64,000 nt of DNA from Bradyrhizobium oligotrophicum S58 (lineage in GTDB: Bacteria > Pseudomonadota > Alphaproteobacteria > Rhizobiales > Xanthobacteraceae), in assembly GCF_000344805.1 (NCBI RefSeq), contig NC_020453.1, positions 7,225,001-7,289,000 on the forward strand, written 5' to 3'. The position numbers were made by a program, and so were the translations under genes. This document shows, piece after piece, positions 17,578 to 57,517 of the stretch. The notes beneath the pieces were generated by a model that did no database searches, was not told the origin of the DNA, and saw only the letters and a list, made by a program, of their open reading frames with translations. The stretch's first letter is position 1. Each line of letters opens with the position of its first letter.

Positions 17578-17610
17578 ATCGGCTAAAGCGAGCGGACGCT
17601 TCACTCTCAC

Positions 17611-17685
17611 CGTCATTGCGAGCGCAGCGAAGCAATCCAGAGTCCTTGCTCGGCCCTGGATTGCTTCGCTGCGCTCGCAATGACG
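17611..17685. repeat. Palindromic intergenic repeat, copy 4
   Basis: This 75-bp near-perfect palindrome has arms CGTCATTGCGAGCGCAGCGA + AGCAATCCAG and CTGGATTGCT + TCGCTGCGCTCGCAATGACG. It is the least diverged copy in the window and lies between the convergent genes shc and panE. Confidence 0.93.
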
Positions 17686-17735
17686 CCTGTTGCAGGAGCG
17701 GTTTCGCATCTCAAACAGCGTGACAAGTCCAGGCA

Positions 17736-18182
17736 ATCTCGCGGCATCTGATGCCCGAGCTTTGCGATCATCGTGCCCCTCGACAATGCAAAGGGCGCAG
17801 GGAAGGCCAGGCGTCGGCTGACGCCTGCGGCCCGCCTGCGAAAAAGAATGCAGGCGGCAGGTACCACAGGTGCAGCCGAGAACGCCCGGCCTTCCCTGCG
17901 CGATGGTCTTCACGTTTATACGCGATCTCCCCGGTGTCCGGGCTTGTTAGCCACCGTCGCCCGCGAGATGCTTGAAGCATCACCGCGAACTTGACGCCAG
18001 CATCGGGGCGCCAGGACCACGCGACTTCACGTCCGCACATCACCGTTCGTCCGCGCACCCGAAAGCACGCTGCGGCAATCCGCGGCCACCGCTCCCCGCC
18101 TCGCGTGTCGTGACGATCGCGCGCTACGCCCCTTTGCTCGAGGCGGGATGCGCACAGACAATCACAATTCCCGAAAAAGCGC
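17736..18182 (+). repeat. Structured dispersed repeat, copy A
   Basis: This is a roughly 430-bp non-coding block homologous to 56929-57360. Shared anchors include ATCTCGCGGCA, CTGATGCCCGAG, GGGCGCAGGGA, ACCACAGGT, CCCTGCGCGAT, GCCAGGACCAC and GAGGCGGGATG. It folds well: the outer stem GCGCAGGGAAGGCC/GGCCTTCCCTGCGC (17795-17808/17888-17901) encloses two perfect 7-bp hairpins, AGGCGTC-GGCT-GACGCCT and CGCCTGC-loop-GCAGGCG. It lies between convergent genes. The spurious open frames across it are not conserved in copy B. With the palindromic repeat at 17611 it accounts for most of the 774-bp gap. Confidence 0.8.
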
Positions 18183-18282
18183 AACAGATTTATTTTTTTC
18201 AGAATAAGATCCCGGCTGCGACGGTGACACCATTTTCCGTCAGTCACTCCACCATATCGGCGATGTAGACGACGGGACGCGA

Positions 18283-19146
18283 TCAGCGGCGCGTTTGCTC
18301 GTAGGCCTTCAGATGCGTGTAGGCCGTGCGAAGCCGGGGCACCGGAATTCTTGCGGCGTCAGCGCGCGCAATCAGGTCGCCAATCACATGGTCGGCTTCG
18401 ATCGGTTGGCCTGCCTTGATGTCGCGGAACATCGATGCGGTGAGCGACGAGCCTTCCGCGGTCGCGACTACCCTGCTTTCGTCGAGAATGCCAAGTAGGA
18501 AGTCCCTGCCGCCGGGCGCCGCCAAGATCATGCCGATCGGTGCACGCATCAAGCTGGTCGAGGCTGCGTTCGACGCGAGGAACACCCATTTCTCCCACAT
18601 GTCCTGCAGGACAGTCTCGCTCGCCGCGCCGTCGAAATTGCAGTTTCCGACGAGGTCCGCAATGGCGCGAACCCGGTGTGACATCTTGCCGTCGCGCTCG
18701 CCGAAACCAAGCGACTGTATCGGGCCGAGCTGGACCACCTCCCGCTTATCGTTCAGTGTTACCGCCGTCAGGCAAAGCCCTCCGAGCACGTGGCTCGCTC
18801 CAAATTGTTTGTCGAGAACGTCCAGATGACGCATGCCGTTGAGCAGCGGGATGATCGAGGTATTCTCGCCTACCGCCGGTGCCAACGACTTGATCGCATC
18901 GTCGAGGTCGTAGGCCTTGCAACTCAACAGCACGACGTCAAACTTGTCCTTGATGGTGTCGGCCTGGACAACGGGCGGATCCTTCAGTGTGACGTCTCCG
19001 TTGGGGCTTTTTATCACGAGGCCCGCGGCTGCAAGCTCTGCCGCGCGCCGCGGTCGCACCAGAAAGGTGATGTCGCGGCCGGCTTGCAGCATCCTGCCGC
19101 CGAAATATCCGCCAATGGCTCCGGCGCCAACGATGAGAATGCGCAT
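18283..19146 (-). CDS. panE: 2-dehydropantoate 2-reductase (ketopantoate reductase family)
   Basis: This 287-residue NADPH-dependent reductase family member converts ketopantoate to pantoate in pantothenate/CoA synthesis. It has the N-terminal Rossmann motif ILIVGAGAIGGYFGGRML (about 3-20), SCKAYDLDDAI near 76-86 and the conserved Lys/Glu region DMWEKWVFLASNAA (about 182-195). Bacteria often carry several ApbA/PanE-like paralogues with other ketoacid substrates, so the gene symbol is by family. It is divergent from the MFS transporter at 19365. Confidence 0.85.
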   Translation of the reverse strand: MRILIVGAGAIGGYFGGRMLQAGRDITFLVRPRRAAELAAAGLVIKSPNGDVTLKDPPVVQADTIKDKFDVVLLSCKAYDLDDAIKSLAPAVGENTSIIPLLNGMRHLDVLDKQFGASHVLGGLCLTAVTLNDKREVVQLGPIQSLGFGERDGKMSHRVRAIADLVGNCNFDGAASETVLQDMWEKWVFLASNAASTSLMRAPIGMILAAPGGRDFLLGILDESRVVATAEGSSLTASMFRDIKAGQPIEADHVIGDLIARADAARIPVPRLRTAYTHLKAYEQTRR

Positions 19147-25152: not shown

Positions 25153-25827
25153 GAGTCCGCGAAAACACTGGCCGGCAAGCGTGAACGCGTTACGAAACCT
25201 TAAGCTCGCTTAACGTTCGTTCAGACAGTCGAGCCGCGTGTGTGGCTCGTAAGCACAGGTTAGGGAAATCTATCCCAACTCTGAAAATTCCCTTGCGAAC
25301 GAAATTCAAAACGCTTATTTCCGCTTCTGCCCAATTTCGCACGTGCCTGTGGTCGTGTGTCAGTCGGTAGGTATCCGGACAAGAGGCCGGACAGCCGCCA
25401 AGGGATGAGGAACCGAGGGGTTCTCGGATCGTTGCGATCAGGATCAGTTCGATCGAGATCGTCATGCTCCAGGAGCCCAGCATCTCTCTCAAGAGATGCC
25501 GCTGAAGGTCACCTCCTCTTTTGCAACCGTGACTGGCAGCCGGAGGCGAACCGGCGCACCCCGCTCTCAACGGGGGACGCGACTTAAAGCAACGACGGAT
25601 CGGGCTTTTTTGGTCTCTACCGGCAGTCCAAAGCCGGCGCGGGCTACTGAAAAGGCTTGTCCTTCATTGCCAGGTGTGCGGGCGGGAAATTCCCAACCAA
25701 TCCACGGCAGCACAATTCGGCTACGGGTTCGAGGTTTTGTCGCCTTTCCATCGGGCGGCAACGCCAAGGCACCCGTGTCGAGATCATTTTGAACGGGTCT
25801 CGTCGCTGGGACCGTTTGGAGGGTGCT
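25153..25827 (+). promoter_or_regulatory. Long structured leader of the decarboxylase gene; candidate speF element
   Basis: This 675-bp gene-free stretch precedes odc. From about 25343 it contains successive hairpins: CCGAG/CTCGG near 25413, GCATCTC/GAGATGC (25480-25486/25493-25499), GCCGG/CCGGC (25539-25543/25551-25555) and CCCCG/CGGGG (25559-25563/25571-25575), then a T-run near 25608. CACCTCCTC at 25510-25518 is complementary to the odc ribosome-binding site GGAGG (25818-25822). The alphaproteobacterial speF RNA motif lies upstream of ornithine decarboxylase genes; position and target fit, but I cannot score the match. 25153-25342 shows nothing definite. Confidence 0.5.
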
Positions 25828-56425: not shown

Positions 56426-56839
56426 ATGTGTGACTACAGCCTCCATACTGTTGCTTCCCGTGACGCCAAGATCGACGACGTGCTGGTCTCCTGTCGCTTT
56501 CCCAGCACGGAAACACGCGGTTTCTGCACCAAGGACGATCCGTTGACCGCAGTGTGCCTGCGGCCCGGCACCGAGCTCGCCTTCGAGGACGACGTCCGCA
56601 TCAAGGGCATCTTCTTCTTCCGCCGCAAGGTCGGTGCTCATCTCGCCCGCTTCCGCCAGGTCGACACCAACAAGCCGACCGAGCATCACGACGCGCTCGA
56701 ATTCTCCAACGGCCGCATCGTCAAGGTCACCGACCTCGCCACCGGCCAGCGCGCCCGCGTGCTGCAGATGCCGGCCGATGCGGCGACCAAGCGAACGACG
56801 ACACCGGTCACGATCGAGCTGCGCGCGACGCAGCTCTGA
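56426..56839 (+). CDS. Conserved protein of unknown function
   Basis: This 137-residue soluble protein begins MCDYSLHTVASRDAKIDDVL and has TRGFCTKDDPLTAVCLRPGT (about 31-50) with three cysteines in the first 45 residues. The rest is a beta-rich basic domain. It is read as real because of the clean ATG after AGGAGC and normal codon use. No family recognised. Confidence 0.72.
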   Translation: MCDYSLHTVASRDAKIDDVLVSCRFPSTETRGFCTKDDPLTAVCLRPGTELAFEDDVRIKGIFFFRRKVGAHLARFRQVDTNKPTEHHDALEFSNGRIVKVTDLATGQRARVLQMPADAATKRTTTPVTIELRATQL

Positions 56840-56928
56840 AGGCTTTGAGATGGACGACGGCAGCGCCGCGGCGGCGCTGGCGTCGTCCATGCCGTAACGG
56901 TTTTGATCTGTACCCATGAGCGTTCGCG

Positions 56929-57360
56929 ATCTCGCGGCACCTGATGCCCGAGTGATGCGGCCGTCATTCCCTCTCTCTTTCGACGAGAGGGCGCAGGGAG
57001 AGCCGGACCTCGGCTGAGGCCCGTGGCCCCCGTGCGAAAGAAATGCACGGGGCAGGAACCACAGGTACAGCCGGATGACCCGGCCCTCCCTGCGCGATCG
57101 TTTTAACGGTGTCCTTCGTGCTCTCCCTGGGGATCGGCTTTCTTGCCCCCATCGCCCGCGCGAGCCGTCACAGCATCGGCAGCGAGCTTGACCTCAGCGT
57201 CGAGAGGCCAGGACCACACGACTTCGCCGTCCGTGCCGGCCACGCTCGTCCAGCGCCACCGTCACGTCCATCGCAGCCCACCTCCACGTTCGTGACGACG
57301 CGTACGTCCCTCTGCACGAGGCGGGATGGGCGGAGATAAGCATGACTTCGGAAAAATAGC
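56929..57360 (+). repeat. Structured dispersed repeat, copy B
   Basis: This is homologous to 17736-18182 over its whole length but clearly diverged. The outer stem GCGCAGGGA/TCCCTGCGC and the inner hairpins CCTC-GGCT-GAGG and CCCCGTGC-loop-GCACGGGG occupy the same places as in copy A, with different paired bases. It also lies between convergent genes (56839 and 57518). The gap 56840-57517 contains nothing else recognisable. Confidence 0.8.
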
Positions 57361-57517
57361 AATAGGAAATTTAGCTCCGTGCCGAAAGTTCATCTCTGTG
57401 AGCGGCTATACAGACCAAGACAAAACCAGCTTTCCGTCTCCGCATCGCGGCCTGATACAGCGCCCGCGGCGAGATCAGCCAGGATCTGTTCGAAATCTGG
57501 GAGCAGCGCCGGCGCGC

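Follow-up and report, generated by a model that had tools for sequence, protein, structure and literature searches.

Large, intricately folded bacterial RNAs normally occur in one or a few copies per genome, and intergenic repeats of high copy number are as a rule short palindromes. The 64,000-nucleotide stretch of Bradyrhizobium oligotrophicum S58 DNA analyzed here (the window) features two related blocks, copy A and copy B, and the locus raises the question of what kind of element they represent. A preliminary description of the window took them for a dispersed repeat with a selected structure, either a non-coding RNA family or a structured mobile element, that may already be catalogued as a genus-specific repeat. 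The analysis determined that the blocks belong to a real, selected, non-coding structured element, which is present in at least 127 copies in the 8.26-Mb genome based on a covariance-model search with its core. A fold of ~400 nt that is kept in more than 100 dispersed copies is neither the usual large RNA nor the usual repeat. The fold, its strand, its upkeep at orthologous places after species split, and the lack of a coding signal in the indels were all computed. The best reading, which draws on sequence comparison, is that the copies are probably high-copy autonomous structured RNA genes that would have spread by DNA-level copying and whose fold would be kept by selection. A soybean-inoculant genus would thereby gain a missing RNA class, and the many natural variants, the predicted fold, and the shared orthologous places make its function directly testable.

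Copies A and B in the window

Both blocks were found where the preliminary description had placed them. The inner hairpins that it listed are present in the sequence, AGGCGTC/GACGCCT and CGCCTGC/GCAGGCG in copy A and CCTC/GAGG and CCCCGTGC/GCACGGGG in copy B, as are the enclosing stem GCGCAGGGA/TCCCTGCGC, which in copy A is 20 nt long with 95% complementarity, and the conserved segment ACCACAGGT. The present analysis adds to this the strand, which is the minus strand of the window, a predicted fold that spans the whole block, and a family that is wider than the genus. Single-strand folding of copy A gave a z-score of −7.3 (copy B is given in Table 1), and in both cases none of the 100 shuffles was equally good. 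Two covariance models were used, R1, a model of the ~111-nt core built from 31 copies, and R2, built only from genera other than Bradyrhizobium. In the window the highest-scoring R1 matches to copies A and B are on the minus strand, and weaker echoes appear on the plus strand; R2 finds both copies on the minus strand with E values of 1.7e-11 and 1e-10.

Each copy would encode, on the minus strand of the window, a multibranched RNA of ~400–420 nt in which a 5′ hairpin (AUCCCGCC...) would be followed by a closed multi-arm domain, a core with a three-way junction, and a terminal 3′ hairpin. The features are collected in Table 1. The 5′ end of copy A was set near 18151 by analogy, and its 3′ hairpin finishes near 17739.

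Table 1. Features of copies A and B and of the adjoining palindrome (positions in the window).
Feature	Position	Strand	Evidence
Copy A, predicted structured RNA, ~417 nt	17735..18151	−	127-copy alignment and consensus fold; core match
Copy A core, read as three-way junction (outer stem P1, P3 hairpin with U-rich loop on P2, P4 hairpin)	17791..17903	−	R1 112.8 bits; R2 68.8 bits; 35-sequence core pair counts
Copy A conserved upstream stretch (TTGC...TTTTTCGG)	18152..18205	−	conservation over 127 copies; promoter position in other lineages
3′ tail of copy A, featuring the GCTGTTTGA motif	17707..17734	−	motif counts
Perfect palindrome, 30-bp arms starting CGTC, past the 3′ end of the copy A RNA	17611..17685		inverted repeat, 100%
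Copy B, predicted structured RNA, ~402 nt	56928..57329	−	core match 56987–57097, 111.6 bits; fold z-score −4.3
Copy B core, read as three-way junction	56987..57097	−	R1 111.6 bits; R2 64.9 bits
Copy B conserved upstream stretch	57330..57375	−	alignment with other copies

Predicted fold and RNA strand

All 127 copies were taken with 4-kb flanks and aligned. Pairwise identity averages 0.676, and the identity of a copy to its closest counterpart has a median of 0.79 and a maximum of 0.95, so most copies are old. On the 127 aligned copies RNAalifold scored the window's minus strand at −302 and the plus strand at −240. The resulting fold opens with a 5′ hairpin and continues with a multi-arm domain, which GCGGUGG/CCAUCGC closes, a core junction, and a 3′ hairpin. 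The core is interpreted as a three-way junction. RNAalifold favored an extended P2 and its fold consequently missed P4, the first hairpin of the preliminary description. The first six pairs of P4 are formed in 126 or 127 of the 127 copies and show as many as five pair types; the seventh is formed in 85 of the 127. A pseudoknot, UCGUC/GACGA, that was seen by eye was dropped because its second strand is missing in several copies from other genera. Compared with the other copies, long insertions were observed in the middle domain at two loci (L203 and L277) and in the core at another (L248), and a deletion at a fourth (L207).

A G·U pair on one strand is an A·C mismatch on the other, so an excess of G·U names the RNA strand. 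Over all predicted pairs of the minus-strand fold in the 127 copies there are 2121 G·U versus 304 A·C, which names the minus strand, although this fold was itself derived on the minus strand, so that the count leans that way and the asymmetry is inflated by the choice of fold. With a fold derived on the plus strand (113 pairs, 102 of them shared) the minus strand still shows 905 G·U versus 419 A·C, so that the asymmetry is roughly halved. At 20 loci from other genera the Bradyrhizobium fold retains 69–88% of its aligned pairs, and the counts sum to 251 G·U versus 112 A·C; the middle arms of the fold align poorly at these loci.

Covariation

The preliminary description had proposed a selected structure, a claim that a lack of covariation would count against. 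This claim is supported by covariation in favor of a fold on one strand, as is characteristic of a structured non-coding RNA, and that extends in the core across clades. The null model was a home-made stand-in for R-scape, in which the parsimony changes of each column were resimulated on a FastTree tree in 12 replicates over 425 columns. Among the 127 copies 20 column pairs covary at E<0.05, of which 14 lie in the RNAalifold fold (11) or in P4 (3) and 6 lie in neither. Two of the three covarying P4 pairs are formed in 126 of the 127 copies and the third in only 85. The outlying pairs include loop column 249 with columns 245, 260, and 262 of one hairpin, plus 245 with 260. This covariation in the GGUGGC hairpin links a loop base with the adjacent stem pair, as in a base triple, and may reflect a tertiary feature. 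The remaining outlying pairs, 171–280 and 180–272, adjoin helices.

The core was also compared across clades in an alignment of 35 hand-chosen sequences (13 from the own genome, 2 from G053, and 20 from other genera), in which P1, P2, and P4 were counted and P3 was excluded because the two clades were aligned out of register there. The two clades have different stems, and 99.8% of the cells are paired, with 10 of the 24 pairs changed on both sides. The double-change cells number 75, versus 24.1 in shuffles and 0–10 in slid controls. For the 20 cores from other genera alone, 99.8% of the cells are paired, 6 of 33 pairs are changed on both sides, and 21 double-change cells compare with 7.1 in shuffles; the extra pair types in these 20 cores are not above shuffles (293 of 500).

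Change at orthologous places

Loci of BTAi1, STM 3809, STM 3843, B. aeschynomenes, SSBR45G, and SRS-191 match the flanks of copies in the own genome with a mean identity of 88.2%. The relatives' copies, 90 of which were located by pattern, include 65 with at least 600 bp of flank that matches the flank of an own copy in the same orientation, 29 of them with at least 300 bp on both sides, and 25, some on short loci, for which no orthologous own copy was found. The 61 flank-matched copies that could be aligned gave mean identities of 0.829 to the ortholog, 0.782 to the best paralog, and 0.882 in the flank. The ortholog is the nearest copy in 39 of the 61 pairs and is not the nearest in 22, so that gene conversion muddies the ortholog test. 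A clean set of 31 pairs, in which the ortholog leads by at least 0.05, was used for the counts below, and 30 pairs were dropped.

In the clean set the single changes comprise 223 between Watson-Crick and G·U pairs, 50 between Watson-Crick and A·C, and 140 others. There are 89 double changes, of which 59 are paired in both orthologs, 22 are broken in one, and 8 are broken in both, versus 22 expected and 26–63 in slid controls; the controls slid on the 5′ side reach 52–63, so part of the double changes stems from local clustering. Stems differ at 7.5% of positions and unpaired positions at 17.2%. The ratio of Watson-Crick/G·U to Watson-Crick/A·C changes is 145 versus 52 for the plus-derived fold, 141 versus 35 for the pairs common to both folds, and 4 versus 17 for the few pairs unique to the plus-derived fold. 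The plus-fold and common-pair counts indicate that the asymmetry holds and is nearer to three or four to one than to 223:50.

These counts bear on the explanation that the copies are ordinary debris of the REP or MITE type, in which palindromes are kept by gene conversion alone. The orthologs that are not the nearest copy are in keeping with this explanation, as is the almost uniform core of the 20 G053 copies, which differ elsewhere and are mostly 86–92% identical overall to a reference copy; the uniform core in G053 suggests conversion or a lineage-specific constraint. Conversion, however, predicts neither the excess of G·U over A·C in the clean pairs nor a cross-genus core with new stems, and debris of this kind is highly improbable.

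Copy number and range among relatives

In the R1 search of the genome (8,264,165 bases) the best 150 matches are read as 127 separate RNA-strand places, each scoring at least 56 bits, plus 23 antisense echoes of these places. A plain DNA search of the same genome found at least 40 places (the best 40 of 165 candidates), all of which overlap one of the 127 copies found with the model. Strict filters apply in the searches over 40 genomes, and their counts are therefore lower bounds. R1 matches at least 56 of the 60 sampled genomes of the genus, own genome included, with the best 64 candidates at most scored per genome, and at least 26 of the 119 genomes of the family. R2 matches at least 42 of the 119 family genomes, in 17 of the 47 sampled genera, with at least 1–17 matches per genome outside Bradyrhizobium among the best candidates scored (up to 31). 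This model also matches at least 6 of 199 genomes of the order, five of the genus and one of another family (G302, 1 match), and at least 1 of 142 genomes of the class, namely the window's own genome. Two relatives with complete genomes gave 78 and 86 matches. A plain DNA search found matches in at least 24 of 41 genomes, own genome included, and all 24 are within the genus. The label of a genus-specific repeat, which the preliminary description had suggested, is not upheld by an element that occurs in these 17 genera and has a single match in another family. The single copy in that other family (L375) has TATAAT before the 5′ hairpin and an outer stem that is rewritten yet paired.

Coding test, promoter, and 3′ end

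The 432 indels between orthologs include 320 of length one and 28 that are multiples of three, and the ortholog differences are distributed over the codon phases as 892, 857, and 932. The longest run without a stop codon averages 127 amino acids, slightly above the 113 of shuffled sequence, which counts against a non-coding element. Pfam gave no match for the minus-strand ORF at 17768–18247 or for the ORF at 56686–57048. A protein-coding origin was rejected because the indels and the substitution phase look non-coding and the ORFs are without a Pfam match.

For the promoter scan the 5′ hairpin was located by motif at 14 of the 20 loci from other genera and in 90 of the 127 own copies. At the 14 loci the best TTGACA/TATAAT-type score averages 9.0 versus 7.2 when shuffled, 9 of the loci score at least 9 of 12 (versus 4% of shuffles), and at 10 the −10 box starts 13–14 nt before TCCCG. 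The other genera thus feature a sigma-70-like promoter at a fixed distance before the first hairpin, and in several G145 and G003 copies TTGAC was seen upstream by eye. In the own genome the upstream score under this E. coli-type consensus is 7.02, no higher than the 7.15 of shuffled sequence, with 6 of 90 copies at 9 or more versus 6.2% of shuffles; the upstream block is conserved among the 127 copies. We infer that the element is probably transcribed in this genome. At the RNA 3′ end no poly-U terminator was seen. The tail motif GCTGTTTGA occurs in 24 of the 127 own copies, in none of the 127 in reverse, and in 14 of the 20 G053 copies; this pattern and the CGTC-type patterns were chosen after the copy tails had been inspected.

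Spread and mobility

The preliminary description had left the choice between an RNA family and a mobile element. The strand asymmetry and the positioned promoter in other genera make the RNA-gene side the better supported, but a recent expansion of copies in some genomes indicates that the element also spreads. In G003 seven of the eight fetched copies are 90–98% identical to one another and the eighth is without a match. In pairs that include L356 the match begins ~282 bases ahead of the core start and ends 178 bases after it, and in other pairs it ends 173–215 bases after it. Identities of 91–98% were found among some G106 and G145 copies: in G106 four of six copies match at 95–97%, one at 84%, and one not at all, and G145 features two sub-groups, at 91–92% and at 97.6%. 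The shared unit already begins before the 5′ hairpin, which makes a reverse-transcribed RNA improbable as an intermediate, and we infer from these boundaries a spread by DNA-level duplication or transposition.

The main rival of autonomous RNA genes is a selfish, non-autonomous mobile element whose folded strand, as RNA or single-stranded DNA, would be the substrate of an enzyme acting in trans, so that only folding copies multiply. Such an element would agree with a copy number that ranges between species from 0 matches to more than 100, with the close identities just described, with the copies showing no preference of gene orientation, and with the relatives' copies for which no orthologous own copy was found. 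It is opposed by the compensatory and G·U-biased change that goes on at orthologous places after insertion, which a dead selfish copy would not undergo. The terminal inverted repeats that mark a MITE were not found in copy A, where no inverted pair of at least 9 nt joins the ends (11 pairs reported). No target-site duplication was seen by eye at the edges of 19 copies from G003, G106, and G145, edges that are not base-exact, and the plasmid and phage collections gave no match to the element, although a control repeat likewise found no Bradyrhizobium plasmid. A selfish element of this kind is a possibility of some weight, albeit clearly less than an even chance.

Known families and related elements

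Rfam 15 holds, for example, the group II intron, 6S, RNase P, OLE, ROOL, and GOLLD. None of its families matches the element; speF is the only family that reaches the gathering threshold in the window, and in 17600–18300 only three miRNA models appeared, far below threshold. The speF leader (RF00518) is located elsewhere in the window, at 25618–25776 on the plus strand, with 48.6 bits. OLE, ROOL, and GOLLD are families of low copy number. The element resembles OLE, ROOL, and GOLLD (PMC12286853) in that these are large, elaborate, conserved bacterial RNAs, and unlike them it is without an Rfam match and has about a hundred copies per genome.

REPs of the CGTC or GTAG type are described as a single 5–13 bp stem with a CGTC or GTAG tag, and CGTC REPs occur in Bradyrhizobium (PMC3733652). 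These REPs and Br-REP1/2 (PMC5082802) share with the element the same genomes, a mainly intergenic location, palindromes, and a high copy number. REPs are palindromes of 20–40 bp, whereas the element is multibranched and ~400 nt long, and the CGTC-type palindromes, one of which adjoins copy A at 17611–17685, are its frequent downstream neighbors and not the element itself. The mobile/repeat sequence candidates (MRSC) of a survey of structured motifs (PMC11109978) are likewise structured motifs with covariation and dozens of copies, whose orientation relative to the neighbors is inconsistent. MRSC-65-2 from the same paper is a single long stem that is sometimes near a transposase gene, in contrast to the ~400-nt multibranched element with its promoter in other genera.

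Neither Rfam 15 nor the available text of the open papers searched confirmed that the element had been catalogued before. That text yielded REP papers and other RNAs only and no description of the element; the elements described in PMC5082802, PMC4842269, PMC3733652, PMC11109978, PMC2864571, and PMC2267715 are others. It could still have been published as a B. japonicum sRNA or as the larger repeat around Br-REP2 that PMC5082802 mentions with data not shown and that reaches Nitrobacter, Oligotropha, and Afipia; compared by description, this repeat could overlap the element. Prior publication in either form is nevertheless quite unlikely, given that the Br-REP1 consensus CCGGAATCTCGAGATTCCGG had no exact match in the 355 fetched loci, that the multicopy sRNAs in the accessible text of PMC5082802 have 2–4 copies, and that there is no Rfam entry.

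Placement on the chromosome and neighbors

The copies are intergenic, and according to a home-made gene finder only 2 of the 127 share more than 80 bases with a predicted gene. The flanking genes are divergent for 41 copies, both on the RNA strand for 39, both opposite for 24, convergent for 21, and unresolved for 2, compared with 92, 88, 65, and 60 for the same classes in background gaps of at least 100 bases. A 3′-UTR role was rejected because these orientations mirror the background. By replication strand, 74 copies are leading and 53 are lagging (turning points from GC skew, hand-summed bins), which is not convincing as a bias.

The spacing of the copies is more even than random in the own genome (CV 0.69 versus 0.99 for random placement) and in G069 (CV 0.79, p 0.013), and it is not more even than random in G041 (CV 0.93, p 0.32). 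The smallest gaps are 7492 bp in the own genome (p<0.0001), 9273 bp in G069 (p 0.0004), and 7910 bp in G041 (p 0.0035). No gap is under about 7.5 kb, versus 13.7, 5.8, and 4.7 expected in the three Bradyrhizobium genomes, which sum to ~24. A re-search of 100 of the 127 loci for a second copy within 4 kb gave one central match at E≤1e-10 in 98 and a second match in none; the two weakest copies fall below this cut-off, and weaker second copies could escape it. Two G080 copies 3.6 kb apart are a counter-example to a minimum spacing.

We tentatively suggest, as a working mechanism, that the transcripts might bind a shared protein partner at the core junction, forming a ribonucleoprotein, and might act partly near their source. 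A partly local action would fit the minimum spacing of ~7.5 kb and the selection on individual copies despite redundancy. A rather doubtful reading is that an undescribed, high-copy family of large structured RNAs with a minimum spacing and copy-by-copy selection might be, for example, an RNA component of chromosome organization in Bradyrhizobium and the rest of its family; if each transcript acted near its own gene, both properties would be expected. The naRNA4/REP325 RNA of E. coli is a REP-derived nucleoid-associated RNA that is proposed to work near the chromosome, and it resembles the element, by description, as a repeat-derived structured RNA near the chromosome.

The spacing could also arise if the DNA itself were the functional form, as extruded single-stranded DNA or a cruciform that serves, for example, in nucleoid organization with no RNA product. 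The minimum gap in three genomes and the even spacing in two would be compatible with such a DNA element, G·T pairing likewise favors one DNA strand, and REP-type palindromes cluster on the 3′ side of the copies. A promoter at a fixed distance, as seen in other genera, and a multibranched fold of ~400 nt on one strand are instead what is expected of an RNA gene, and a DNA element is unlikely.

Within 220 bases past the RNA 3′ end a CGTC-type REP-like motif is found in one orientation at 54 of the 127 copies and in the other at 31, compared with 11 and 13 for the 260 bases on the upstream side and with ~15 predicted on the basis of other gaps. These downstream palindromes may be terminators or insertions. 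The sequence of the palindrome next to copy A suggests a REP-dimer-like unit, and units like it were observed on Novosphingobium, Methylosinus, and Methylobacterium plasmids, at no fewer than 40 places in one record.

The neighbor gene of copy A, of the ketopantoate reductase type, is listed for all 60 genus genomes, and among the matches listed the element is beside it in the own genome only. One neighbor gene type, which we take to be lytic-transglycosylase-like, recurs beside copies in three other genera (L333, L338, and L345, with a partial fourth in L339) and beside one own copy (L204). These cases are too few to build on, and the gene possibly marks an ancient site.
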